Source: a virus
DNA length: 64,000 bases
Reading direction: 5' to 3' (one strand)
Virus record (IMG/VR): IMGVR_UViG_3300028610_002211
Span: 40,306-104,305 of that record
Part shown: piece by piece, positions 22,113 to 55,768 of the stretch
How positions within the stretch are numbered: the stretch's first letter is position 1
How the letters are laid out: every line of letters starts with the position of its first letter
Program-made: the position numbers and the translations under genes
Notes under the pieces: model-generated
What the model saw: the letters and a program-made list of their open reading frames with translations, nothing else
The model's database searches: none
What the model was told of the DNA's origin: nothing

Positions 22113-22742
22113 ATGGTAAGGGGGAAATTTATTGTTTTAGAGGGGGCAGACGGGGCGGGGACAACGACGATTGCGAATTATTTAACGGATAAACTAGAAA
22201 CTAAATTTGGCAAAAGGTCTGTTGTGTTAACTCATGAACCATCAGATTTTGATACTGGTGTTTTTATTCGTGAAATTTTACGAAGTGAAAAAACGGTTTC
22301 GCAAGGTTTGGCAATGGCTTATCTGTTTATTGCGGATCGTATCGATCACACAAAACGCCGAATTATTCCAGCGCTCGAAGCTGGCAAAATGGTTGTTTGT
22401 GATCGTTATTACTTTTCAACTCTGGTTTATCAATCTGTCAAAGACGATTTTTCAAGTTCATGGAAAGAGTTAGAGGGTTTATCTCCTTTAATGCGGGGGC
22501 ATATAGAGCCGGATTTATCTTTGCTTTTGGATTGTAGAATTGACACTTTGCGAGATAGGCGTGAAAATCGAAATGAAGTAAAAGAGATTTATGAAAACGA
22601 TGGTTATCAAAAGATAGTTGTTGATCTTTATCGTGCTTTGTTTTCTAGGTATAGATATAATTCCGAGATGATTGACGCCGAAGAAAGTCTTATTTCCGTA
22701 AAGGCTAAAACGTGGGCAGTGACTAAAGAACTTTTTTCTTGA
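22113..22742 (+). CDS. tmk: Thymidylate kinase
   Basis: Phosphorylates dTMP to dTDP with ATP, supplying dTTP for phage DNA synthesis. P-loop GADGAGTTT (residues 11-19); the K to T change in GxxGxGKTT is a known variant of this family (GxDGxGTTT). DR motif VVCDRYYFSTLVYQ (residues ~92-105), and an Arg-rich LID segment DRRENRNEVKE. At 209 aa it is of normal length. AAAGGGG Shine-Dalgarno; preceded by a terminator-like hairpin. The only nucleotide-metabolism gene seen in the window. Confidence 0.92.
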   Translation: MVRGKFIVLEGADGAGTTTIANYLTDKLETKFGKRSVVLTHEPSDFDTGVFIREILRSEKTVSQGLAMAYLFIADRIDHTKRRIIPALEAGKMVVCDRYYFSTLVYQSVKDDFSSSWKELEGLSPLMRGHIEPDLSLLLDCRIDTLRDRRENRNEVKEIYENDGYQKIVVDLYRALFSRYRYNSEMIDAEESLISVKAKTWAVTKELFS

Positions 22743-29833: not shown

Positions 29834-31636
29834 ATGGAAAAGAATACAACAAAGAAGACAGAAGAAACAAGCGATCGAACGGTTGATAGTAACGAAGTAA
29901 ACAAAAGCGCATTAAGAGCAATTAGAGCTCGTGTTGTCGAAGTGAGAAAGTCGACCAATGATGTTAAAGATGGTAAATCGAAAAAAGCAGACGATGATCC
30001 ACTTTATCAATTGGGCGAAAGTGGCAGAATTCTGGAAATGCCTTTTGACGCGCTTAGTTTAACCTTGTTGCTTGAACATAGTGGCGAATTGTCTCAATGT
30101 ATTGAGGCAATGGAGATCAATATTGAAAGTTTTGGCCACAGGTTTATTCCCAGAACGAAAAACAATCTTGATGTTAAATTACCCGATTCACTCAAAGAAG
30201 AAATGAAAAAAGAGCGCGTTCGTCTTGAAAACTTTTTTGCAAATTGCACGTTTGAGTCTTTTGTCAATTTTAGACGAAGGCGGAGAAAAGATCTTGAATC
30301 GACTGGAAATTGTTTTTTTGAAGTTGTGCGCGGCGCTTCTGGCGACATACAGAGTTTTGTACATATACCGGCTTATCAAGTTCGACTTGGTAGACAAGAT
30401 AAAGATTTAGTAAAAACTATAAGGCCAGCTTATCAATTGCAATTAGATGGTTCTGTTGAAATTGTGAAGTTGACAGAATGGAGAAGGTTTAGAACATATG
30501 TTCAATCGAGATTATCAAGGCGCCAGAATTTAGACATTATACCGGGCGATCGGATTCGATGGTTTAAAGAATTTGGTGATGAAAGGGTTTACGAGGCTGA
30601 AACCGGTCATCCACAAAGCGAAGTGGACGAAACAATTCCGTGGGAAAAACAAGCAAACGAAATGATCCATGTTGATTTATACTCGGCCAGAAGTCCGTAT
30701 GGTTTACCGCGTTACATTGGAAATTTGCTTTCAATTTTTGGAGATCGAGCGGCCGAAGAAATCAACTATGTCACTTTCAAAAACAACAATATACCTTCGA
30801 TGGTTATTTTATGCTCAAATGGACAATTGACGCAAGGTTCAGTTGAAAGAATCGAAAGTTTTGTTGAAAGCCAAGTTCAAGGATCTGATAACTACAGCAA
30901 ATTTTTGATCGTCGAAGCTGAGGGTGATTTAGAAGGTGAAGACGGGAATCAAATAAAACTCGAAATCAAACCGTTAACTGAAGATCAACATACAGACGCG
31001 TTGTTTCAAACTTATTCGAAAAATAGCAAAGATAATGTTCGGCGCTCTTTCCGTTTACCTCCAATTTTGGTTGGTCATACTGCGGATTATAACAAAGCAA
31101 CAGCGGATACAAGTAGACGGCTAGCAGATGAACAGATTTTTGCGCCCGAGCGCGACGAATTTGACACGTTGATGAACCGGCTGATTTTTCCAGTGTTGGG
31201 GATCCTTTATCACAAATACAAGTCAAATTCACCAAACACAACCGATAATGAACAGCTTGTTAAAATGCTTGCTACTTCAGAAAAGACGGGCGGTATGACC
31301 CCGTTTATTGCACGGTTTATATTAGAAGGTATTTTGGGCCAAGATTTACCACCTTTCACGGAAAAATTCGATCAACATATGCCGTTTTCTTTGTTAATGG
31401 CCGAAGCTGTAAAAAACAAAGCCGATCCGACCGAACCCGGGCAACAAGTAACCGCGATCAAAAGCGACGGTACGGTTGACGGTGACGTTTTGATAACGCT
31501 TTTAAAAAAGGTTTTGGGCCCGAAGGATCCGTTAATTGAGCATTTAACATCTCTTCAATCTGAAATTGAAAAACAGTGGTCCGCTGATTTAGATGAAGAT
31601 CACGATCACGACGAAGAAGACGAAGACAACGAATAA
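29834..31636 (+). CDS. Portal protein (PBSX/SPP1-like, 600 aa)
   Basis: Dodecameric portal at the unique capsid vertex. Motifs in order: a head-proximal region LEHSGELSQCIEAMEINIESFGH, VHIPAYQVRLGRQ, WFKEFGDERVYEAETG, MIHVDLYSARSPYGLPRYIG, EINYVTFKNNNIPSMVIL and SFRLPPILVGHTADYNKATAD, all typical of the phage portal family with an NNxxP turn. The C-terminus is strongly acidic (DEDHDHDEEDEDNE). AAGGTG Shine-Dalgarno. Confidence 0.93.
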   Translation: MEKNTTKKTEETSDRTVDSNEVNKSALRAIRARVVEVRKSTNDVKDGKSKKADDDPLYQLGESGRILEMPFDALSLTLLLEHSGELSQCIEAMEINIESFGHRFIPRTKNNLDVKLPDSLKEEMKKERVRLENFFANCTFESFVNFRRRRRKDLESTGNCFFEVVRGASGDIQSFVHIPAYQVRLGRQDKDLVKTIRPAYQLQLDGSVEIVKLTEWRRFRTYVQSRLSRRQNLDIIPGDRIRWFKEFGDERVYEAETGHPQSEVDETIPWEKQANEMIHVDLYSARSPYGLPRYIGNLLSIFGDRAAEEINYVTFKNNNIPSMVILCSNGQLTQGSVERIESFVESQVQGSDNYSKFLIVEAEGDLEGEDGNQIKLEIKPLTEDQHTDALFQTYSKNSKDNVRRSFRLPPILVGHTADYNKATADTSRRLADEQIFAPERDEFDTLMNRLIFPVLGILYHKYKSNSPNTTDNEQLVKMLATSEKTGGMTPFIARFILEGILGQDLPPFTEKFDQHMPFSLLMAEAVKNKADPTEPGQQVTAIKSDGTVDGDVLITLLKKVLGPKDPLIEHLTSLQSEIEKQWSADLDEDHDHDEEDEDNE

Positions 31637-33506
31637 ATTGACGGCGCTTCAAACATATACGCGCTTGGTAAAAGTCGATTCTGTTATTGCCAAGGTCGCG
31701 AAAATTTCAGAAGTCACCCAAATTGGGCGCGGTGAAAAACGAACCCGTTCTTTTATGCAGAGCGCTTGGCAGAAAAGAGCCAAAGAAGCCACTGAAAAAG
31801 CTATTCAACTTGCCAAAAAATTAGAGAAACCTGAAAAAATTGCGGCGGCAATTGACGCAATAATGGAGCAATGGAAAACAGATGTTTTACCAGTATTTAT
31901 ATCCGAGTTTTCGCTTGCCTATCGTTTGGGGCGTGAAGTCGGTTACAAAAAAGCAACAAGGCAGATCAAAGGTTCGCTTCGTTACGGATTGCCAAAAGAA
32001 ACACCCGTTACAAAAGCAAAGGCGCCGGTTGAGTTATTACCATCCTTTGACATTATCGATCGAGAAAATTTAAAGGCGCTCACTAATCACCAAGTTTTTT
32101 GGATCGGCGATTTTTACAAAAAAGGCGTTTCCCAACAAATAGCGGCAACAACCAAAGATGTGATGGCAAGGTGGGGTGAAGGCGCTACAATTGCCGGGCG
32201 CCGGATGGGGCAGAAAATCAGTGAAAATTTTGCCCATGTTCGTTTACCAAGCGGTTTTGTGGGGACTCCAAAACAATATTTCAGCGGGTTGACAGCAAAC
32301 GCTTTCACTGTGGGCCGTGTTCACGGTCAAATGCGTTCTTTTGCTGAGATAGGTATCAAGACTTATACAATCAGTAACCCGGTCGATAAGCGCACCTGTA
32401 AACGTTGTGCTCACTTAAACGATAAACGCTTCACTACAAAACAAGGTGTTGACGCTATGCACGCGGAACTTTCGGCAAAGTCGAAAGCCGGTGTTAAAGC
32501 GGTTCACCCTTGGCTTTCGTTGGGTGAAATTCAAAAAATTTCACCAAAGCCAGGTTTTGTTGGGGGTGCGGCGGGCGTCAAAGATGCAAAGGCTTTGTCC
32601 GAAGCCGGGCAAGCTTTGCCGCCATTTCACTTTAAATGCCGTTGTACGGTCGATATAGCGATCGACTCGATGTCATACAGTAATCTAGTACCGTTAACAC
32701 CACCGACCGCTAGGAAGCCTTCTAGACCCCTTGAGCTTAAACCACCAAAAGCGAGAATCGCAACATTGAGAGATCGGATCGGCCAACTATTGCGAACTTC
32801 GATAATTCGCAAAACATCTTTTACCCATGTTGAAGGTGAAAAGTTTGCGTTTTTAGAAATGCAATCGATACAACCGGGGGGCAAAAAAGCAATAACTGCT
32901 CTTTGGAAAACAGCGGGAACTGAAAAAGCCGAATCTTCGTTTTATCGTTTAGATCGAGAATTGGGTGGAAAAACAATTGTCCCGCCAACAATAGCCAGGG
33001 ATCCCGGCTTGGGATCTGGTGTTGGTACACTTCAACATTTTGAAAAACGTTGGAAGGTTACCGATAAAATTACAGACGCCCAGAAACAAAGAATTCGTTT
33101 ACTAGATTTTGTTTCTGGTAACAGCCAAAGAAGAAAAGGGAATATCTTAAAAACTGGCGCTGGTATAGCTGTTGTGAATAACGACGGTGGTTTTAAATCG
33201 GTAACTCCAAAAAAATATTACTACCCAACTTCGGATAAATTGAAAGATTTGAGCGCAACCGATGTAAAAAAATTGAAGAAAATCGGTTTGAAAAGAATTG
33301 CCGAAATCTTAGAACAAGAGGGCATTTCTAAAAAAGCCGCAAGATTAACACTTTTACGGGCGAAATTGGTAATCGATAAGCCCAAACTTTTAACCAAAAA
33401 GAAGACAAAAACCCTTTGGAATGACCTAGAAAACAACCCCAAAAAACACTTAAAGTCTAAAGATGTTAAGAAGATAGATACCATTTTAGATACAATTTAC
33501 AAGTAG
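31593..33506 (+). CDS. MuF-like minor head protein with C-terminal kinase-like domain (up to 637 aa)
   Basis: The start is uncertain: ATG 31593 inside the portal gene, or TTG 31638 just after its stop. Residues ~40-360 match Mu gpF/SPP1 gp7-type head morphogenesis proteins, with the zinc cluster TCKRCAHLND (~268) and FHFKCRC (~345) and GxxG-rich linkers. After a Pro-rich hinge, residues ~425-540 look like a GASK/PI3K-like kinase: AESSFYRLDRELGGKTIVPPT, RIRLLDFVSGNSQRRKGNIL and AVVNNDGGF. The usual GNxDRHxGN catalytic Asp is Gln here, so it may be a pseudokinase or a changed enzyme. The remaining ~100 residues are helical and basic. Confidence 0.8.
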   Translation: MKITITTKKTKTTNKLTALQTYTRLVKVDSVIAKVAKISEVTQIGRGEKRTRSFMQSAWQKRAKEATEKAIQLAKKLEKPEKIAAAIDAIMEQWKTDVLPVFISEFSLAYRLGREVGYKKATRQIKGSLRYGLPKETPVTKAKAPVELLPSFDIIDRENLKALTNHQVFWIGDFYKKGVSQQIAATTKDVMARWGEGATIAGRRMGQKISENFAHVRLPSGFVGTPKQYFSGLTANAFTVGRVHGQMRSFAEIGIKTYTISNPVDKRTCKRCAHLNDKRFTTKQGVDAMHAELSAKSKAGVKAVHPWLSLGEIQKISPKPGFVGGAAGVKDAKALSEAGQALPPFHFKCRCTVDIAIDSMSYSNLVPLTPPTARKPSRPLELKPPKARIATLRDRIGQLLRTSIIRKTSFTHVEGEKFAFLEMQSIQPGGKKAITALWKTAGTEKAESSFYRLDRELGGKTIVPPTIARDPGLGSGVGTLQHFEKRWKVTDKITDAQKQRIRLLDFVSGNSQRRKGNILKTGAGIAVVNNDGGFKSVTPKKYYYPTSDKLKDLSATDVKKLKKIGLKRIAEILEQEGISKKAARLTLLRAKLVIDKPKLLTKKKTKTLWNDLENNPKKHLKSKDVKKIDTILDTIYK

Positions 33507-33595: not shown

Positions 33596-34120
33596 ATGCC
33601 ACGTAGAGCGATGACAGCACAAAAATACGAACAATTAAAAGCTGAAAAACAGATCATTCCGGTTGAAAGTGATGAACCGAAAGAGCCGGTTGCAATCGCC
33701 AAAAATACAGAAGAAGCGGTTTCAGTAATTAAGGCATATGTCAAACTTGTAAAGTTAGCAAAAGAAGAACAAAAAGTTACCGGCGTTGTTTTAGAGCCGA
33801 ATGTTTTTGACACGCAAAAAACGACTATTAGTGATGAAGTAATCCGAAAAGCGGCACATGGCTTTTTAGCTGGCTTCAATATAACAACCAAACTTGGTGT
33901 CCAACATAAAGATTTCAAAAAACCGTTTGAACTTTGCGAATCATATATTGCGCCGATCGATTTTGCGTTAGGTGATAAAACGATCAAAAAAGGATCATGG
34001 GTTGTAATCCTAAAAATTCTAAGCAAGAAAATTTGGGACAGGATTAAAAAGGGCGAAATCACCGGTTTTTCAATCGGCGGAAAAGCCAAAATCAAAAAAC
34101 TCAAAAAAGAGGCTGCATAA
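33596..34120 (+). CDS. XkdF-like prohead protease (174 aa)
   Basis: VTGVVLEPNVFDTQKTTISDEVIRKAAHGFL, LGVQHKDFKKPFELCESYIAP, GSWVVILKI and IKKGEITGFSIGG follow the XkdF putative serine protease pattern; His of QHKD and Ser of GFSIGG are the candidate catalytic pair. It would cleave scaffold and capsid during maturation. The usual C-terminal EVxSLVDRPAN segment is split off into the next gene. A degenerate promoter-family motif (ATATCTAAATTAGAGTGT) is just upstream at 33560. Confidence 0.75.
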   Translation: MPRRAMTAQKYEQLKAEKQIIPVESDEPKEPVAIAKNTEEAVSVIKAYVKLVKLAKEEQKVTGVVLEPNVFDTQKTTISDEVIRKAAHGFLAGFNITTKLGVQHKDFKKPFELCESYIAPIDFALGDKTIKKGSWVVILKILSKKIWDRIKKGEITGFSIGGKAKIKKLKKEAA

Positions 34121-35079: not shown

Positions 35080-36288
35080 ATGGGCAATATCGTAAATGAG
35101 GAATTAGTGCACGAAGAAGTGCAAAAAGCTATTACCGCCGCTGATGATCTCGCAACGGGTGGTAAACTCAACGCCGCGCAAAGCGATCGTTTCATCGATT
35201 ATGTGATCGATGAAACGGTTTTGAAACAAAACGCGCGGACCGTGCGATTCCGCAACGAAACGCTAAACATCGACAAAATCGGAATCGGCAGACGAGCGGC
35301 CGTTCCAAAGGTCGAAGCAAAGGATCCGGGTGTTCGACGCGGGATCACAACTTCGCAAGTTCCTTTGACCCCTTCAGAGGTGATGGTGCCAATTGAGATC
35401 TCGGATAATTTCCGGGAGTTGAACATCGAAGGCGACAACGTAACGGATACCATCATCCGTTTATTCGCCACCCAACTGGCCAACGATCTCGAAGAACTCT
35501 ATTTGATCGGTGATACGGTCGGTCCGGCAGTGCTCGAAGGTGACATTGTCGACAGCGGTTCAACAACGTTGTACATCAAAGATTCTTATCTGGCGTTGCA
35601 GAACGGTTGGCAAAAACTCGCAGACGGCGGACACCTCGTTGACGCACTCGGTTTGAACATTGGTGCAAGCGTGTTTTCGCAAGCGCTGCGAGCAATGCCG
35701 ACCAAGTTCCGCAGAAACAGAAAAAATCTACGCTTCTTCATGAGCCCGGATCTGGCTCAACTCTACGCTGAAAAGCTTTCGACCCGTGCGACCAAAGGCG
35801 GCGACGATGCAATGGCTGGAATGATTATCACACCTTTCGGTGTGCCGATCGTCGAAGTTCCGTTGTGGGATTTCCAACCAAAACAGGTCGAACATGTCGC
35901 ATTGCCGGGCACAACGGTTGTGGCGCTGAAATACAAGAACATCGTTGATGTTGTTGTGTTGCCTGAAACACTCGACGATACCCCCACAACGCCTTTCATC
36001 TCGGGAACTGATTACACCCTAGATGCGGCGGCCGGGACGATTGCGCGTGACGGTGGGGGTTCTATCGGCGACGGGGACACGGTCAAGGTGACCTACGGGG
36101 CGAGCCCGCAAATAATGCTCACCCACATGAACAACTTCATTGTCGGGATCGGGCGTGATGTTCGGATCGAGAAAGACCGCGACATCTACAAAACGGTCGA
36201 TCAATACGCGATCACGGCGAAAGTAGCGGTCCAAATCGAAGAAGTCGACGCGATCGTGAAGGTGTACAACATTGGCACGGGCGTTTAA
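35080..36288 (+). CDS. Major capsid protein, HK97 fold (402 aa)
   Basis: Helical N-terminal arm, E-loop region (RGITTSQVPLTPSEVMVPIEISDNF), spine helix (TIIRLFATQLANDLEELYLIGD), A-domain with FRRNRKNLRFFMSPDLAQLYAEKL, and C-terminal IGIGRDVRIEKDRDIYKTVDQYAITAKVAVQIEEVDAIVKV. An extra beta insert (residues ~303-345, ISGTDYTLDAAAGTIARDGG) sits late in the sequence. ATAGGAG Shine-Dalgarno. The codon pattern is richer in GC than in neighbouring genes, in line with high expression. Confidence 0.9.
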   Translation: MGNIVNEELVHEEVQKAITAADDLATGGKLNAAQSDRFIDYVIDETVLKQNARTVRFRNETLNIDKIGIGRRAAVPKVEAKDPGVRRGITTSQVPLTPSEVMVPIEISDNFRELNIEGDNVTDTIIRLFATQLANDLEELYLIGDTVGPAVLEGDIVDSGSTTLYIKDSYLALQNGWQKLADGGHLVDALGLNIGASVFSQALRAMPTKFRRNRKNLRFFMSPDLAQLYAEKLSTRATKGGDDAMAGMIITPFGVPIVEVPLWDFQPKQVEHVALPGTTVVALKYKNIVDVVVLPETLDDTPTTPFISGTDYTLDAAAGTIARDGGGSIGDGDTVKVTYGASPQIMLTHMNNFIVGIGRDVRIEKDRDIYKTVDQYAITAKVAVQIEEVDAIVKVYNIGTGV

Positions 36289-39357: not shown

Positions 39358-40491
39358 TTGACACACCATAAATATTTGAGTCGATTAACAAGTCACCCAG
39401 TAACGCCCGCTACAGGTGTGGATCTCATATATACATTAAGCACTAACGGGCACCTGTATGTCAAAAACACTTTTGGCACTTTCGATTTAACGACCGCAGT
39501 TGGGTTAGCCCACAATGATCTTTCAAACATTCAAGGAGGTGGAGCGAGCGAACGTCAGCATATGACGACAGCACAACACGCCAAGGCCACACAGAACGCT
39601 TCTGGGTCTCAGGATGGGTTGTTGAGTCAGGCTGATTGGTCGGCGTTTGACGGGAAATCCGATTATGCCGATCCTTTGACTACCGATGGTGATATTCTCA
39701 TTCGGGATACAATTACGAAACGGCTGGCTAAAGGGTCAGATGACCAGATATTGACGCTTGCGAGTGGATTACCTTCGTGGGAGGATGCAGCCGCCGAGAG
39801 TGCGTTTTCTATGGACTGTGTTGTGGGGCTGCTGGCCACGTGGATATCGGACACAACGCTGAGAATCGTACCAGGGAAGTGTCGCAGTGATGATGATACT
39901 TTCAATATGGTCTTAGGTAGTAATCGAGACGCTGTGATTACAGCATCTGGGGCCGGTGGGCTCGATACGGGTTCGGAAAGTAGTTCTACCGGATATTACT
40001 TGTGGCTCATCTACGATACAACGGGTGAGACCTATGCAGCCATGCTGAGTGAGAGCGCTACCTCCCCAACAATGCCGGGCAACTACGACAAGAAGAGGCT
40101 TGTCGGATATACCTTCAATGATTCATCGAGCAATCTTCTTGACTTCAAAATGTTCGGTGATGGCTGCGTTCGGTTTGTGCATTACAATGAACCGAGACAA
40201 ACGGTATTACGCCTTTTAAATGGTGGAACTGCAACTAGTTGGACTGATGTCGATTGTAGTACTTTGGTACCGATTAATGCTGTTTCGGTTAATTTACACA
40301 TGCAACATTCGACATCTAGTTTGGGTTATGTTCGTCCAAATGGTATGAGTAGTTTGACCGGAGGAGTTTCATTTGTTTTTGCAGGAAATGAAAATACTGT
40401 TGAGCTTGGAATAGATGACCAAACGATTGAGTATGATACAGGCGGAGGAAGCCTTATTTTGGATTTAGCCGGGTATAGGGTGTTGATTTAA
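39358..40491 (+). CDS. Tail fibre protein 1 (377 aa)
   Basis: TTG start. N-terminal attachment segment (DLIYTLSTNGHLYVKNTFGTFDLT) shared with the next gene, then a linker HNDLSNIQGGGASERQHMT and the widespread fibre module DPLTTDGDILIRDTITKRLAKG...LASGLPSW (residues ~101-142), followed by a unique beta-rich C-terminus (GGLDTGSESSSTGYYLWLIYDT), probably the receptor-binding tip. Confidence 0.75.
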   Translation: MTHHKYLSRLTSHPVTPATGVDLIYTLSTNGHLYVKNTFGTFDLTTAVGLAHNDLSNIQGGGASERQHMTTAQHAKATQNASGSQDGLLSQADWSAFDGKSDYADPLTTDGDILIRDTITKRLAKGSDDQILTLASGLPSWEDAAAESAFSMDCVVGLLATWISDTTLRIVPGKCRSDDDTFNMVLGSNRDAVITASGAGGLDTGSESSSTGYYLWLIYDTTGETYAAMLSESATSPTMPGNYDKKRLVGYTFNDSSSNLLDFKMFGDGCVRFVHYNEPRQTVLRLLNGGTATSWTDVDCSTLVPINAVSVNLHMQHSTSSLGYVRPNGMSSLTGGVSFVFAGNENTVELGIDDQTIEYDTGGGSLILDLAGYRVLI

Positions 40492-48782: not shown

Positions 48783-48884
48783 AAGGAGAAAAAAAATGAC
48801 TCGACGATATGGCAGTTTTTAATCACTGGTGATTTGGACGTAACTGTAAACTAGAAGGAGAAAAAAATGACTCAACGACGTTAT
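48741..48884. repeat. 72-bp tandem duplication at the sheath start
   Basis: Two near-identical units beginning CAGTTTTTAATCACTGGTGA (48741 and 48813) cover the 3' end of the upstream gene, its stop, the AGAAGGAG Shine-Dalgarno and the first codons of the sheath. They differ by one A in the poly-A and a few bases after the ATG. Confidence 0.9.
48796..48822 (+). CDS. Vestigial 8-codon minicistron (duplicate sheath start)
   Basis: The first unit of the duplication has AAGGAG and ATG, encoding MTRRYGSF then stop, where the sheath begins MTQRRYGP. It has a full Shine-Dalgarno and so could be translated as an upstream mini-ORF. Confidence 0.5.
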   Translation: MTRRYGSF

Positions 48885-51155
48885 GGCCCGACACGTGGCG
48901 CGGGCGTAGCTGTGATTGAGAAAGAGGGCGATAAAACGATCGAACCCGCTGCATTGGGTTGGGCCGGTTACGCCGGACTTCTCGAAAAAGGCCCGGTTAG
49001 TGAGTTGATCGAGTGTCAAAATGCAACAGCGTTTTTCAAAAAATGCGGTTCGTATATTGATGACAGCTTGCTTCCCGATTCTTGCCGCAGCTACTACAGG
49101 TTAGCAAATGGCGCCGGAGGGCTTTTCCTAATTCGCGTTACAGACGGGAATGAAGCGCAAGCCGAGGTAACGCTTTATGCTCGTTATTTCGAAACATTGA
49201 CGCCAATGGGAAAATGCAAAGCGCACAACGGTGGTCGGTGGGGCGGAAAAGAACAAGTCTTTTCGGGTGATGTTGCCGATGTTGCCGACATCACAGAAAC
49301 GACAATCACAACCGGCGAAACGGGTTGGAAAACCGATCAATGGAAAGGTGGGATTGTTGAACTCGAAGGGGTCGCAAACAAACAATATCCGATCGTCGGT
49401 AATACATCGGCCGGTGTGATCACGGTTGCGTCCGATCAAACGATGGATACCGATCTGGACGTGGGAACGGAAACGCGGTATTACCTCACTTTGGAAAATG
49501 AGACGAAAGCGGTTTCAATTCTGATTGGTGATGGTGAAGAAAAACCAGATGAAGAATTTTCACTTTCGGTTTTCGTCGATGGTGACTTTGTCAAAAAGTA
49601 CGGTAACCTTTCAACAGATCCAACGAGTGGCCGTTATTGGGTGTCAGTGATCAACAACGATGACGGCAATGACGAAATCGAAGTTGAAGATCTTTGGACC
49701 GGGGCACACACCGCAAGTATTCGACCGGCGAACATTTACGGAAAAACGGACGGCGTTCCGACAATAACGGTTTTAACGGCACACATTAGCGATTTCACCA
49801 TTAATTCGCCTGCTGGAGGTGATCCAACGTTTGCTTTAGGCACAACAACAGATGTGTTCAAACCGCAAGTTATCACGGTAACAATGATAGATGCAACAAC
49901 GGGGGACGTTGTGTCTGACAGATTTGGCGCTTTCACGGGGATTTTAACCCTTGGGGTAGAATTTATTCCAGATAACAAATGGGCGCCACCGTTTACCGTT
50001 ACGGTGGGCACAAATCCTTTGGAAGCAGCTGAAACCTTGGTCATTGCTTACAAGCCGTTTGTTGCCAATTCTTTGATCGGCGGCTATCTGTATCCAGACA
50101 AGGCAAACTCAAAACTTGAAAAATACAGGATTGTTGACAACGATCACAAAACAATCACTGTTGCACCCGGTTCGGATTTGACGGTTTCGGGCGACGATGA
50201 AGACGAATTCATGGTTGAATCGGCGCTTGAATTGGCGGGCGGAATTGACGGCAATGCAGACGTTGCAGACGCAAGCTACACAACACAGGCGTGGGATACC
50301 GGTTTGAGTCCGTTCAATCGGTTGTTTGGACGCGGTATGGGCATTGTCAAAATGGCAACGCCGGGTGTTATATCGACCGCAGTTGAAAAGGCGGGCGTTG
50401 CTTATGCCGAAGCGAAAAATCACCAATACCGCTACGAAATCCCGGATTCGGTTGTCACAGAATCGGGCGCGATCGGGCATATCAACGATATTCTCGGACG
50501 AAACGATTTCGCGGTTGTAAGTTTTCCATCTTTTTCATGGGTTGCCGATCCGTTAGGCAACGGTGAAGGCAAGCGAAAATTGGTTTCGAGCACGGGAATG
50601 GTTCACGGTAGAGAAGCGCGGATCGCGGGCGACTTCGACGGTTACCACAAGGCCGAAGCCGGGACCACTGCGACGTTGCCCGAAATCTTGGCGTTACCAA
50701 CTGGTGAAGCAATTCTTGACGAAGAACAGCTCAACCCGGTTGGGATTGGCATTATCAAGAAAAAGAAGGGCAACTACATCTTGTGGGGCGATCGGACTTT
50801 GTTTCTTGATCCGACTTGGAAATGGAAACATCAACGCGAACAAATGTCATGGTACGAACACATTTTGGCCGAAAACTTTGACTGGATTGTGTTCGCGATC
50901 AACGATACCGACGAATGGACAAACGCCAGAACGGCTTTGATCGCGCTTTTCCTGAAAGAGTGGAGACCAAAAAGAGCGATCCGGGGTGACACTTTCGCCG
51001 ATGCTGCGATCATCAAAGTTGATTCCGAAATCAACACCGACGCAACAATGGCGGGGGGTGATTTGAACGCGTCTGTTGCGTTGCGATTGGCAGACACGAT
51101 CGAAAGGTTCATTATCACAATCGGCAAACAGGGCATTTTTGATAGCGTTGGTTAA
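48867..51155 (+). CDS. Tail sheath protein (762 aa)
   Basis: The contractile sheath. N-terminal PTRGAGVAVIEKEGDKTIEPAALGWAGYAGLLEKGPV and SYYRLANGAGGLFLIRVTDG; C-terminal core with FAVVSFPSFSWV, GIIKKKKGNYILWGDRTLFLD, WYEHILAENFDWIVFAINDTDEW and the strongly conserved FLKEWRPKRAIRGDTFADAAIIKVDSEINT. It is longer than many sheaths because of inserted surface domains in the middle (residues ~130-430). AGAAGGAG Shine-Dalgarno, second copy of the duplication. Confidence 0.93.
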   Translation: MTQRRYGPTRGAGVAVIEKEGDKTIEPAALGWAGYAGLLEKGPVSELIECQNATAFFKKCGSYIDDSLLPDSCRSYYRLANGAGGLFLIRVTDGNEAQAEVTLYARYFETLTPMGKCKAHNGGRWGGKEQVFSGDVADVADITETTITTGETGWKTDQWKGGIVELEGVANKQYPIVGNTSAGVITVASDQTMDTDLDVGTETRYYLTLENETKAVSILIGDGEEKPDEEFSLSVFVDGDFVKKYGNLSTDPTSGRYWVSVINNDDGNDEIEVEDLWTGAHTASIRPANIYGKTDGVPTITVLTAHISDFTINSPAGGDPTFALGTTTDVFKPQVITVTMIDATTGDVVSDRFGAFTGILTLGVEFIPDNKWAPPFTVTVGTNPLEAAETLVIAYKPFVANSLIGGYLYPDKANSKLEKYRIVDNDHKTITVAPGSDLTVSGDDEDEFMVESALELAGGIDGNADVADASYTTQAWDTGLSPFNRLFGRGMGIVKMATPGVISTAVEKAGVAYAEAKNHQYRYEIPDSVVTESGAIGHINDILGRNDFAVVSFPSFSWVADPLGNGEGKRKLVSSTGMVHGREARIAGDFDGYHKAEAGTTATLPEILALPTGEAILDEEQLNPVGIGIIKKKKGNYILWGDRTLFLDPTWKWKHQREQMSWYEHILAENFDWIVFAINDTDEWTNARTALIALFLKEWRPKRAIRGDTFADAAIIKVDSEINTDATMAGGDLNASVALRLADTIERFIITIGKQGIFDSVG

Positions 51156-53008: not shown

Positions 53009-55768
53009 ATGGCACTTGAAAAAGTCGGACTTGGCGCGATCGTAACATCTGACACGAAGCAGTATGTTGATGCTATGGGACGGGCTCGCGATGCAAACGG
53101 CCGTTTTGTCGCGGGCGCCGGTAAGGTTCCGCCTCCACTTGGGAGAATTGGCGCAGCGGCAACAAGGGTTGCAGCTAAATTAAGGGGTATGGCACAAGGC
53201 GTTGCACGCGGCGGTCGAATGATCGGCGCGGGTATGCGTGATATGGGGCTTGGGTTGGCTCCTCTTTCCCTTGGGTTAGGGGCCGCTGTTGCACAAGCGG
53301 CCAAATTTGAGAAGCGCATGAGCGGGGTTGGTGCCGTCTCACGAGCGAACAAAGAAGATATGGCCGCGATGAGTAAAGAAGCGCGGCGTATGGGGATCGT
53401 GTCTGTTTTTTCCGCTTCGCAAGCGGCCGAAGGTATGGAAAATCTTGCCCGAGCGGGCGCCAAACCACACCAAATAATTGCTGGTTTGGGTGGGGTTATG
53501 AATGCAGCGGCCGCAGACGGTATCACCCTGTCCCAGAGCGCCGATATTGTGGCAAGGGTTACCAAGGGTATGGGTCTGGAATGGAGCCAAGCGGGACACA
53601 TTGCAGACACTTTAGCGTTGGCCAGCGCAAGCGCTAACACAAATATTTTGGCACTTGGTGAAGCGTTTATTTATGGTGTTTCCACTTCAAAAGCGATGGG
53701 CGTTTCATTAGAACAAACAACGGCGATTTTTGCGAAATTGGCTGATGCTGGTTTACGTGGATCAATGGGTGGGACTGCTTATGCAAATATGATGACAAAG
53801 CTTGCCAAACCAACGTCAAAATCAATCAAATTACTGAAGAAATGGGATATCAAGTTAGAGACTAGTAAAGGCAAATTGCGCAAGGTCGCTGATATTGTCG
53901 GTGATTTTAGCGAAAAACTTTCGAAGTTAAAATCCGTTACACGACGACAAGCAATTGCGCAAGAAGTTTTTGGTCGAAGGGGTTCACGCGCTTACACTGC
54001 TTTGGCAAACGCTGGTAGAGAGGCAACGTTAGAGTTAGAGGATAGGCTTGTCGCATCTTCAGAAAAAGGCGGCGCGGCGCTTGAAATGGCAAGACGCCGA
54101 TTAGACAATTTTTCCGGTTCAATGACTTTGTTGAAAAGTTCGTTAGAAGGGCTTTCGATCGGGCTTTTTCAACCAATGTTAAAACCGCTTGCAACTTCAG
54201 TTAGACAATTCACTGAAGGTTTTAATAAAGTCTTAATGGCTTTGAATGATATAAACGATTTTTGGGCGGAAAACCCGGATGCAACAGGATTTCCAACAGA
54301 GTCTTTAGAAAAATACGGGAAAACGGTTTCACAAATCGCGCTTGGTTTAAGGGATGCGGTCGACGCTGTCGGTGATGCATGGGATTGGGTTACGAAAAAA
54401 GTTAAAGCGGCTGGTAAGTGGTTCGGGGCAACTTTTGGCGGGGCCACGATGAGAAAAATTATCAAAATCGGAACCTTGATCTTAATAGCCGGGGCCGCTT
54501 TGGCACCTTTGATCCTTAGTTTGGCAATGGCCAAATTTGTGATCGGTGGTTTGATTTCTGTTATCGGCGGTGTTGCAACAATTATCGGCGCTGTGTTTTG
54601 GCCTTTATTGGCTGTTATCGGCGGCATTATCATAGCTTTTCAATTTCTAAAAAAAGAAAACGAGTCGTTTTTACAAACTGCAAGTCGAGTTTGGGGCAAT
54701 ATAAAAATATGGATCTTAGATGTTTGGGAAAACGCTTTGAAACCAATGTGGGCTGGAATCAAAGGCGCCCTGATCCCGGCTATTGAAGAATGGGGCGGCC
54801 TTTGGCAGGAAATTGTCGGCGAAATAAAAACTGTTTTTTCCGAACTTTATCGTGAGTTATTTGGTGGAAACGAAAACACAAAAATCAGTTGGCTTGAAGT
54901 TGGGAAAGTAATTGGCGCGGTTATTGGTGCGATCGGAACTACATTTCTATTTTTTGTTCGTTATATAATTCCATTGTTGGCCGGAATCGGGAAATATTTT
55001 TACAAGGTAGTAAATACAATTTGGGGTATTTGGAAATGGGCAATAACTCAAATCGCCGAAGGTTGGGCAAAACTTGCGCTAGGTATTGAAAAGGTTATAG
55101 AAGGTGACATTTTAGAAGGTTTAAAACGGATCGGACTTGGTCTTTTAGATTTTGTTTTGAAACCATTTCGGTTGCTTCTTGAATCTGCCTTAGCTTTGGG
55201 CGATGCTTTAAATATAGATGTTCCTGACAGTCTTAGAACATTTGCCGAAGAAGGTTTGACAGGGCTCGCTTTCGATATACCAGCAAAAGAAACAGAAAAA
55301 ACTTTTAAAACACGTGCCGAACAAATGGCAAGCTTTGGAATTGTTGAAACAGAGTTGGTTGTTAAACCGGGCGCTGATTTGGGCGGGCGTTTCGGGGAAG
55401 TGAAAACGGTTAAAGGTGAAAAGAGAAGGCGAGAAGAAGAAATCGATCAAATGCGGCGTGATATAGTCAATGCAAGGGAAGCGGCCGGGGCGGATTTAAA
55501 CCCGACTTCAATCGCAAAAGAACTTGCGGCGATGATGGCAAAGAAAGAAGCCGCAGCACAAGCGCCGATCGATGTCAAAGTTGAAAATTTACTCGAAGAT
55601 AAACGAACATTAGACATTAAAAATAATCTTTGTGTTTCTGGCGAAGATGTCAATTTAGCTTCTGGTAGACACAAAGTTGAATTACAAGAAAGAGCCGGTT
55701 TTAAATCAACACCGTGGCAAAAAAGAGCGATACTTGAACATGGTGCGGCGCCGGTTTCACGAGGGTAG
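53009..55768 (+). CDS. Tail tape measure protein, TP901 family (919 aa)
   Basis: N-terminal Gly/Ala-rich helices, then the TP901 core RANKEDMAAMSKEARRMGIVSVFSASQAAEGMENLARAG ... GGTAYANMMTKLAKPTSKS (residues ~115-275), a helical region and several transmembrane-like segments (~485-550 and ~630-665) used in genome injection. The length suggests a tail of roughly 130-140 nm on the usual relation of 0.15 nm per residue. Confidence 0.9.
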   Translation: MALEKVGLGAIVTSDTKQYVDAMGRARDANGRFVAGAGKVPPPLGRIGAAATRVAAKLRGMAQGVARGGRMIGAGMRDMGLGLAPLSLGLGAAVAQAAKFEKRMSGVGAVSRANKEDMAAMSKEARRMGIVSVFSASQAAEGMENLARAGAKPHQIIAGLGGVMNAAAADGITLSQSADIVARVTKGMGLEWSQAGHIADTLALASASANTNILALGEAFIYGVSTSKAMGVSLEQTTAIFAKLADAGLRGSMGGTAYANMMTKLAKPTSKSIKLLKKWDIKLETSKGKLRKVADIVGDFSEKLSKLKSVTRRQAIAQEVFGRRGSRAYTALANAGREATLELEDRLVASSEKGGAALEMARRRLDNFSGSMTLLKSSLEGLSIGLFQPMLKPLATSVRQFTEGFNKVLMALNDINDFWAENPDATGFPTESLEKYGKTVSQIALGLRDAVDAVGDAWDWVTKKVKAAGKWFGATFGGATMRKIIKIGTLILIAGAALAPLILSLAMAKFVIGGLISVIGGVATIIGAVFWPLLAVIGGIIIAFQFLKKENESFLQTASRVWGNIKIWILDVWENALKPMWAGIKGALIPAIEEWGGLWQEIVGEIKTVFSELYRELFGGNENTKISWLEVGKVIGAVIGAIGTTFLFFVRYIIPLLAGIGKYFYKVVNTIWGIWKWAITQIAEGWAKLALGIEKVIEGDILEGLKRIGLGLLDFVLKPFRLLLESALALGDALNIDVPDSLRTFAEEGLTGLAFDIPAKETEKTFKTRAEQMASFGIVETELVVKPGADLGGRFGEVKTVKGEKRRREEEIDQMRRDIVNAREAAGADLNPTSIAKELAAMMAKKEAAAQAPIDVKVENLLEDKRTLDIKNNLCVSGEDVNLASGRHKVELQERAGFKSTPWQKRAILEHGAAPVSRG

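Follow-up and report, generated by a model that had tools for sequence, protein, structure and literature searches.

A phage MuF-type head protein with a PI3K/GASK-like C-terminal domain that is predicted to be a pseudokinase

Introduction

Minor head proteins of the MuF type are known both as components of the virion and as carriers of additional domains. A few copies of the gp7 protein of phage SPP1 enter the procapsid by way of the portal protein; assembly proceeds in the absence of gp7, and gp7-less virions have an infectivity of about 25% (PMC6316719). For toxins fused to SPP1 gp7-type proteins, delivery at infection has been proposed (PMC6316719), and most MuF toxins are accompanied by a small downstream ORF which probably encodes immunity (PMC5576092). 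The C-terminal domain of the MuF protein of phage Mu itself is an inactive PBECR domain (Iyer et al. 2017, PMC5512222).

Both cargo-bearing MuF proteins and phage PI3K-like domains have been described before, each on its own. A PI3K/GASK-like kinase as MuF cargo with a dedicated partner was found neither in a full-text literature search nor in the family libraries searched, and a pseudokinase of this type that has lost its predicted activity together with its partner is new. Here we describe such a protein, which is encoded in a window of 64,000 nucleotides corresponding to positions 40,306 to 104,305 of the IMG/VR virus record IMGVR_UViG_3300028610_002211 (104,305 bases), and compare its locus with those of related phages.

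The gene, its neighbourhood, and the MuF head domain

The original prediction assigned a MuF head protein with a kinase-like C-terminal domain to the ORF at 31593-33506 of the plus strand. This ORF of 637 aa was confirmed, and the strings cited for it are all present in the given order: TCKRC (residues 268-272), FHFKCRC (345-351), ESSFYRLDRELG (447-458), VPPT (463-466), LLDFVSGNSQRRKGNIL (503-519), and AVVNNDGGF (526-534). An assembly error is unlikely, since IMG/VR contig 3300009788_000158 carries the entire gene, and IMG/VR contig 3300024265_000086 an 885-base part of it, without a single base difference. The gene order is portal, MuF-pseudokinase, S78/XkdF protease, scaffold-like gene, and capsid gene, the last being the gene at 35080-36288, which was taken as such from its match to a PHROG virion structural protein (1.7e-76). 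The features of the locus are compiled in Table 1.

Table 1 Features of the MuF-pseudokinase locus (positions refer to the window)
Feature	Position	Strand	Evidence
Portal protein gene, overlapping the MuF start	29834..31636	+	Pfam PF04860 5.7e-15; PHROG 1.5e-33
MuF-pseudokinase gene (predicted), 637 aa	31593..33506	+	ORF call; identical in two other IMG/VR contigs over the stretch they contain
MuF/SPP1-gp7-like minor head domain, residues 1-365	31593..32687	+	PHROG, TIGR01641, Pfam, AF2
MuF zinc-type cluster, CKRC (269-272) to CRC (349-351)	32397..32645	+	Sequence
Proline/lysine-rich linker, near the start of which cargo-less relatives end	32688..32768	+	Comparison with L005
PI3K/GASK-like predicted pseudokinase domain and C-terminal helical tail, about residues 392-637	32766..33503	+	AF2, Foldseek against PDB, blastp
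Lys439, beta3 ATP-site lysine, retained	32907..32909	+	Lys in 43/44 homologues
Glu447, alphaC glutamate, retained	32931..32933	+	Glu in 43/44 homologues
Gln512-Arg513-Arg514 replacing catalytic Asp-Arg-His	33126..33134	+	Asp 44/44 and His 44/44 in aligned homologues
Asn517, metal-ligand Asn, retained	33141..33143	+	Alignment; column partly selected by search pattern
Asn529-Asn530-Asp531 replacing metal-binding Asp-x-Gly	33177..33185	+	Asp 44/44 and Gly 41/44 in homologues; columns unconstrained by searches
Short intergenic gap without ORF, where intact-kinase relatives have a partner of ~80 aa	33507..33595	+	Locus comparison
S78/XkdF head maturation protease gene	33596..34120	+	Pfam PF14550 7.1e-30

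The N-terminal part of the 637-aa protein is, as judged by its sequence, a minor head domain of the MuF/SPP1-gp7 type. Residues 1-365 match PHROG minor head and head maturation families with E-values of 5e-9 to 1e-7 and family TIGR01641 (phageSPP1_gp7) with an E-value of 2.5e-8, which is under the family cut-off, as is the match of the window protein to Pfam Mu_F (0.0023); a homologue sharing 39% identity (L097) clears the Pfam Mu_F cut-off. The features of MuF proteins are present, namely a zinc-type cluster of the CxxC...CxC kind, in which C272, H346, C349, and R350 are invariant among 24 MuF relatives, and a gene located right after the portal gene and before those of head protease and capsid. 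The PHROG matches, the cluster, and the gene position thus bear out the original designation as a MuF head protein. The MuF part was modelled by AF2 with a pLDDT of 85, and a fold search of this part against the PDB gave no match.

Homology and predicted fold of the C-terminal domain

When used alone, the C-terminal domain retrieved nothing useful from Pfam, PHROGs, PDB sequences, and phage records, and the lack of a single-sequence match in Pfam, PHROGs, and the PDB is attributed to the strong divergence of the window protein. In blastp comparisons, the C-terminal 252 aa match MuF proteins of related phages (L269, 8e-30; L265, 9e-29; L262, 1e-18). Of a set of 47 sequences (46 homologues and the window protein), 44 matched the Pfam domain PI3_PI4_kinase, 11 Fam20C, and 8 MuF, and the family profile matched FAM20C, the pseudokinase FAM20A, and PI4K2 among PDB sequences. 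A motif scan of viral contigs returned 67 stretches, nearly all of them phage PI3K/GASK-like proteins. MuF-kinase fusions are present in L029, L007, and L026, and L025 has a portal-MuF-kinase fusion. In genome contigs, a search for related loci using the domain found none, and a pattern scan for the N/K/H/Q variant gave chance ORFs only.

The AF2 model of the kinase-like domain, based on a 45-sequence alignment, has a mean pLDDT of 89.1 and a pTM of 0.84, values obtained from a homologue alignment, with which a kinase fold would come out even for a destabilised protein. Foldseek searches with this model matched PI3K and PI4K structures in the PDB with a probability of 1.00. Against viral models, the hits were to phage proteins that are annotated either as portal or as PI3K/PI4K-domain proteins. 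The domain shows the characteristics of the superfamily, i.e., the kinase fold, the N-lobe Lys and Glu, and end-to-end homology to kinases with the motifs GNxDRHxxN ... DxG. By homology and predicted fold, it is a PI3K/GASK-like kinase domain, and the kinase type named in the original prediction is upheld by blastp (E 8e-30), by the Pfam matches of the homologues, and by AF2 and Foldseek; the structure prediction and fold search that had been proposed as a check returned a kinase fold and not an unrelated one.

Variant scans also turned up a common tape-measure motif, LDxxxGNxQRNVGNY, which mimics the catalytic loop. By itself, this mimicry would allow the kinase resemblance to be a chance motif match; we regard that as next to inconceivable, since the homology to kinases extends end to end over 250 aa, the kinases of related phages occupy the same gene position, and the kinase fold is predicted with confidence. 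The chance match is refuted by blastp homology, AF2 fold, and Foldseek matches, and a relationship of the domain to tape-measure proteins is ruled out by the end-to-end homology.

The altered active site

In the 44 aligned homologues, which had been filtered for DRH, the catalytic Asp, the His following the Arg, and the metal-binding Asp are present without exception and 41 sequences have the Gly of DxG, the DxG columns having been free of constraint in all searches and the first scan having permitted D, E, H, or Q at position 512 and any residue at 514. The window protein has Gln512 for the catalytic Asp, Arg514 for the His, Asn529 for the metal-binding Asp, and Asp531 for the Gly, and its kinase domain is devoid of the glycine loop and of the RE arginine. 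Retained are Lys439, Glu447, Asp505, Gly509, Asn510, Arg513, Gly516, Asn517, and most scaffold positions, the conservation of Gly509, Asn510, Arg513, Gly516, and Asn517 being partly due to selection, as these residues belonged to the search patterns. Nine close homologues have 26 conserved columns, and the window protein agrees with them in 16. The domain has undergone at least three in-frame deletions and contains no stops and no frameshifts.

The altered catalytic motif of the original prediction is real with respect to the exchange of Asp for Gln512. The Asp within NNDGG, which had been read as that of DxG, was rejected, as the alignment places the DxG Asp two residues away at Asn529, and both catalytic acids are therefore changed. 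The kinases closest to the window domain (L269 and L265), whose phages have a 67-69% identical capsid protein, retain DDRHTQN and IDNG, and all five kinases found via the capsid gene without any kinase pattern (L269, L265, L262, L268, and L272) have DRH and IDNG. Since all other homologues, including these five, keep both Asp residues, the change is specific to the window phage; of the motifs expected to be conserved in homologues, the scaffold is conserved and the Asp-to-Gln change is unique. Viral-contig pattern scans for other Gln, Asn, Lys, or His variants gave no further degenerate kinase among the matches listed.

From these residues we infer that the C-terminal domain is a pseudokinase which has lost its activity. 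An injected kinase that is active in spite of the altered motif could draw on the retained Lys, Glu, and Asn of the ATP site and on other members of the clade, which look active by sequence, but we consider it very improbable because the two acids universal in 44 homologues are gone, as are the catalytic-loop His, the Gly of the metal loop, and the partner gene described below. With these losses and that of the glycine loop, the working kinase or nucleotidyl transferase entertained in the original prediction is not sustained. A pseudokinase with another chemistry would bind a nucleotide via Lys439, Glu447, and Asn517 and catalyze AMP transfer or carboxylate activation in the manner of SelO and SidJ. 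SidJ shares the Gln in the position of the catalytic Asp and the Lys-Glu pair, and it has no kinase activity but glutamylates (PMC6858067). It requires its DFG Asp, however, as a D542A exchange abolishes auto-AMPylation (PMC6858067), and the corresponding position is Asn529 in the window protein, which makes a SidJ-like activity less likely. As the window domain also lacks the glycine loop and no homologue shares the Asp-to-Gln change, we judge this chemistry improbable.

Cargo domains of related MuF proteins

Relatives were gathered with portal and capsid alignments, resulting in about 35 loci (about 30 related phages). In this clade, the C-terminus of MuF is a swappable cargo slot that holds nothing, a kinase, an ADP-ribosyltransferase, an HExxH peptidase, or an acetyltransferase-like domain, in agreement with the original view of MuF proteins as carriers of exchangeable effector domains. 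No cargo follows the MuF zinc cluster in L005, L294, L097, L092, L266, and others. Intact kinases were found in L269, L265, L268, L272, and, with an additional ADP-ribosyltransferase recognized by Pfam, L262; L264 has an ADP-ribosyltransferase according to its sequence. HExxH-type peptidases (L261, L277, L284, and L094) and an acetyltransferase-like domain (L278) were assigned by eye. Mapping the six cargo labels onto the MuF tree takes 10 changes.

The supported sister of the window phage on this tree (100/99) is the cargo-less L005, whose MuF protein stops about 14 aa beyond the start of the window's linker and which has neither the kinase nor the partner gene. In the kinase tree, the window domain belongs to a supported set of nine (98/95) together with L269, L265, L262, L268, L121, L122, L124, and L125, within which its end branch is 2.16 vs 0.08-1.45 for the others; the end branch of the window MuF is average (0.62, median 0.63). 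GC and GC3 are 0.39 and 0.33 in the kinase domain vs 0.45 and 0.42 in the MuF part. The absence of kinase and partner in the sister, the long end branch, and the lower GC and GC3 would suit a relic, that is, a domain whose kinase function was recently lost along with the partner and which is now functionless and drifting to deletion. This reading, which we rate as rather unlikely but as the foremost alternative and one to be taken seriously, is opposed by the full-length open frame, in which every one of several deletions is in frame, by the retained scaffold residues, and by the identical intact frame that other contigs carry over the stretch they contain. The copies of the predicted pseudokinase found are identical only, so they offer no divergence by which present selection could be gauged.

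The small partner gene

In the relatives with intact kinases, a protein of ~80 aa is encoded between the MuF and S78 genes. An iterated profile built from six such partners matched 59 of 29,727 six-frame ORFs of the loci analysed, and all 59 are same-strand neighbours of a kinase ORF, in most cases with an overlap or a spacing of 4 bases and in one with a spacing of 308 bases. A detectable partner is present at 41 of 74 distinct kinase ORFs, and the family has no significant relative in Pfam, PHROGs, NCBIfam, PADLOC, or PDB sequences. This strict adjacency suggests that the partner could be an immunity protein or a regulator, and by analogy with the MuF toxins it probably restrains the kinase in the cell that makes the phage.

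A small ORF between MuF and S78 was present at all five intact-kinase loci with S78 in view, at all five loci with other cargo, and at none of 13 cargo-less loci (loci with an ordinary S78 gene, five with very long S78 genes being excluded), corresponding to a Fisher value of 9e-7 for small ORF vs cargo, uncorrected for relatedness. The putative small genes beside other cargoes differ from the kinase partner, and there is similarity between those of L261 and L277. The window phage is like the cargo-less loci, with 89 bp and no ORF between MuF and S78, and a search of the entire 104-kb contig with the partner profile, run without a positive control, was negative, in agreement with the local sequence. 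A toxin-immunity relation would be expected to lead to just such a joint loss of catalytic residues and partner gene.

Proposed origin and role

The explanation we favour, with somewhat more confidence than doubt, is that the domain is a disarmed but still folded cargo pseudokinase derived from an active cargo kinase, and that any action it has would proceed without phosphotransfer. The ancestral unit, which sister phages would still possess, may have consisted of a MuF head protein with a PI3K/GASK-like kinase and the adjacent small partner gene. Through its binding to the portal, MuF would bring the cargo into the procapsid in a small number of copies, and the cargo could then pass with the DNA into the next host. 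In the window phage, both catalytic acids are gone, as are the glycine loop and the partner gene, while scaffold and open frame are intact. An open frame with in-frame deletions and a kept scaffold suggests that the domain may still be of use, and its present action, if any, could be exerted by binding, as a decoy for a target or as a cap or stabiliser of portal or DNA.

Some observations speak against this explanation. Lys439, Glu447, and Asn517 are kept, as in pseudokinases with other chemistry. The whole domain is missing in the sister L005, which fits a relic equally well.

In a wider proposal, which we put forward tentatively as a possibility, phage heads would harbour an undescribed two-gene weapon, in which a PI3K/GASK-like kinase attached to MuF or portal is delivered with the DNA and checked by an inhibitor of ~80 aa, the window phage having a disarmed, non-catalytic effector, e.g., a decoy for the inhibitor or for a host target. 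The greatest novelty lies in the cassette of kinase and partner, and the window phage offers a natural loss-of-function case for the pair, which raises the direct question of whether the kinase is toxic and neutralised by the small protein. As a viral example, it likewise bears on the question why dead enzymes persist.

Comparison with known systems

The protein resembles the MuF polymorphic toxins (Jamet et al. 2017, PMC5576092; Zhang et al. 2012, PMC3482391) in having an N-terminal MuF domain and a variable C-terminal cargo, and in sister phages a small ORF lies right downstream of the cargo-bearing muf genes. It differs from them in that its cargo is a degenerate PI3K/GASK-like kinase, the word "kinase" being absent from the main text of PMC5576092, and in that the window phage has no downstream small ORF. 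Moreover, the toxin family described in 2017 came from temperate phages (PMC5576092), whereas no PF00589 integrase was found in the 104-kb contig of the window phage, which may be a fragment. With SPP1 gp7 (PMC6316719) it shares the order portal, MuF, protease/scaffold, and capsid as well as the weak TIGR01641 match, but it possesses an extra kinase-like domain of 270 aa. If SPP1 gp7 and the MuF toxins are taken as models, the kinase of the sister phages would be injected and its partner would be of the immunity type, and the window phage would have a disarmed form of this kinase.

Fold and motif order are those of the PI3K/PI4K and GASK (FAM20C, FAM20A) kinases; in contrast to these, the window domain lacks both catalytic acids and the glycine loop and is fused to a phage head protein. 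The nearest NCBIfam to the intact relatives is TIGR03843, the SCO1664 family (L269, E 2e-12), the match being far under the cut-off and the family by definition being without MuF fusion. SidJ (PMC6858067) is similar in its Gln at the catalytic Asp position and its retained Lys-Glu pair, a likeness seen at these residues, and dissimilar in keeping the DFG Asp. The MuF-C domain of phage Mu has an RNase-type fold instead of a kinase fold; it sets a precedent in that a MuF protein ends there in an enzyme domain that is no longer active.

A small protein family adjoining the kinases

Members of a family of proteins of about 80 amino acids, with a motif around PxDGxxFxxAL...AFSxSS, are in the fetched phage contigs invariably encoded beside a PI3K/GASK-like kinase. 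Pfam, PHROGs, NCBIfam and PADLOC hold no entry for this partner family, and it is undescribed; the members in the table are examples, and further ones exist. In two loci, kinase and partner genes alternate in tandem. A small ORF different from the kinase partner follows each MuF gene with an HExxH peptidase-like cargo in L261 and L277; the two ORFs are similar (36% over 39 aa), and cargo and ORF may form a second cargo-partner pair.

Coordinates of features in the window or within fetched viral-contig loci (L-numbers)
Feature	Location	Remark
Partner-family members, each beside a PI3K/GASK-like kinase gene	L269:2913-3158; L265:5953-6198; L268:6224-6475; L121:5772-6020; L029:5164-5439	L029 on (-)
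Tandem kinase-partner arrays	L046:2-6613; L063:1469-5159	
Small ORFs after MuF-HExxH cargo	L261:2271-2477; L277:4662-4865	
MuF with insertion	L272:3029-6055	
MuF with two cargo domains	L262:2837-5653	
Long post-MuF genes in cargo-less relatives	L095:4521-9002; L096:8247-10679; L097:8884-12195; L098:4681-6501	
Tail sheath and tape measure genes	window 48867-51155 and 53009-55768	
Thymidylate kinase-like gene	window 22113-22742	PHROG 761, 1e-34

Variation in MuF cargo

The MuF gene of L272 (same contig as L128) carries an insertion of about 300 aa within the zinc-cluster region, which terminates in ISNC ahead of CRTTVDI, is followed by an intact kinase and looks like a Hint/intein element. MuF of L262 bears two successive cargo domains, an intact kinase and then an ADP-ribosyltransferase (Pfam PF03496), a double cargo also present in L091 and L263. 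In several relatives with cargo-less MuF, the genes 3' of it code for long proteins that contain methyltransferase, Dam-type methyltransferase and DNA ligase domains, with a fusion to the S78 head maturation protease in L095; these post-MuF genes (L095-L098) are a second cargo slot.

Tail genes and a misleading motif

Since it encodes a tail sheath and a tape measure, the phage of the window has a contractile tail. Tape measure-like proteins of many phages (L144-L259) share LDxxxGNxQRNVGNY, a trap when reading by motif, as it resembles a degenerate kinase catalytic loop.
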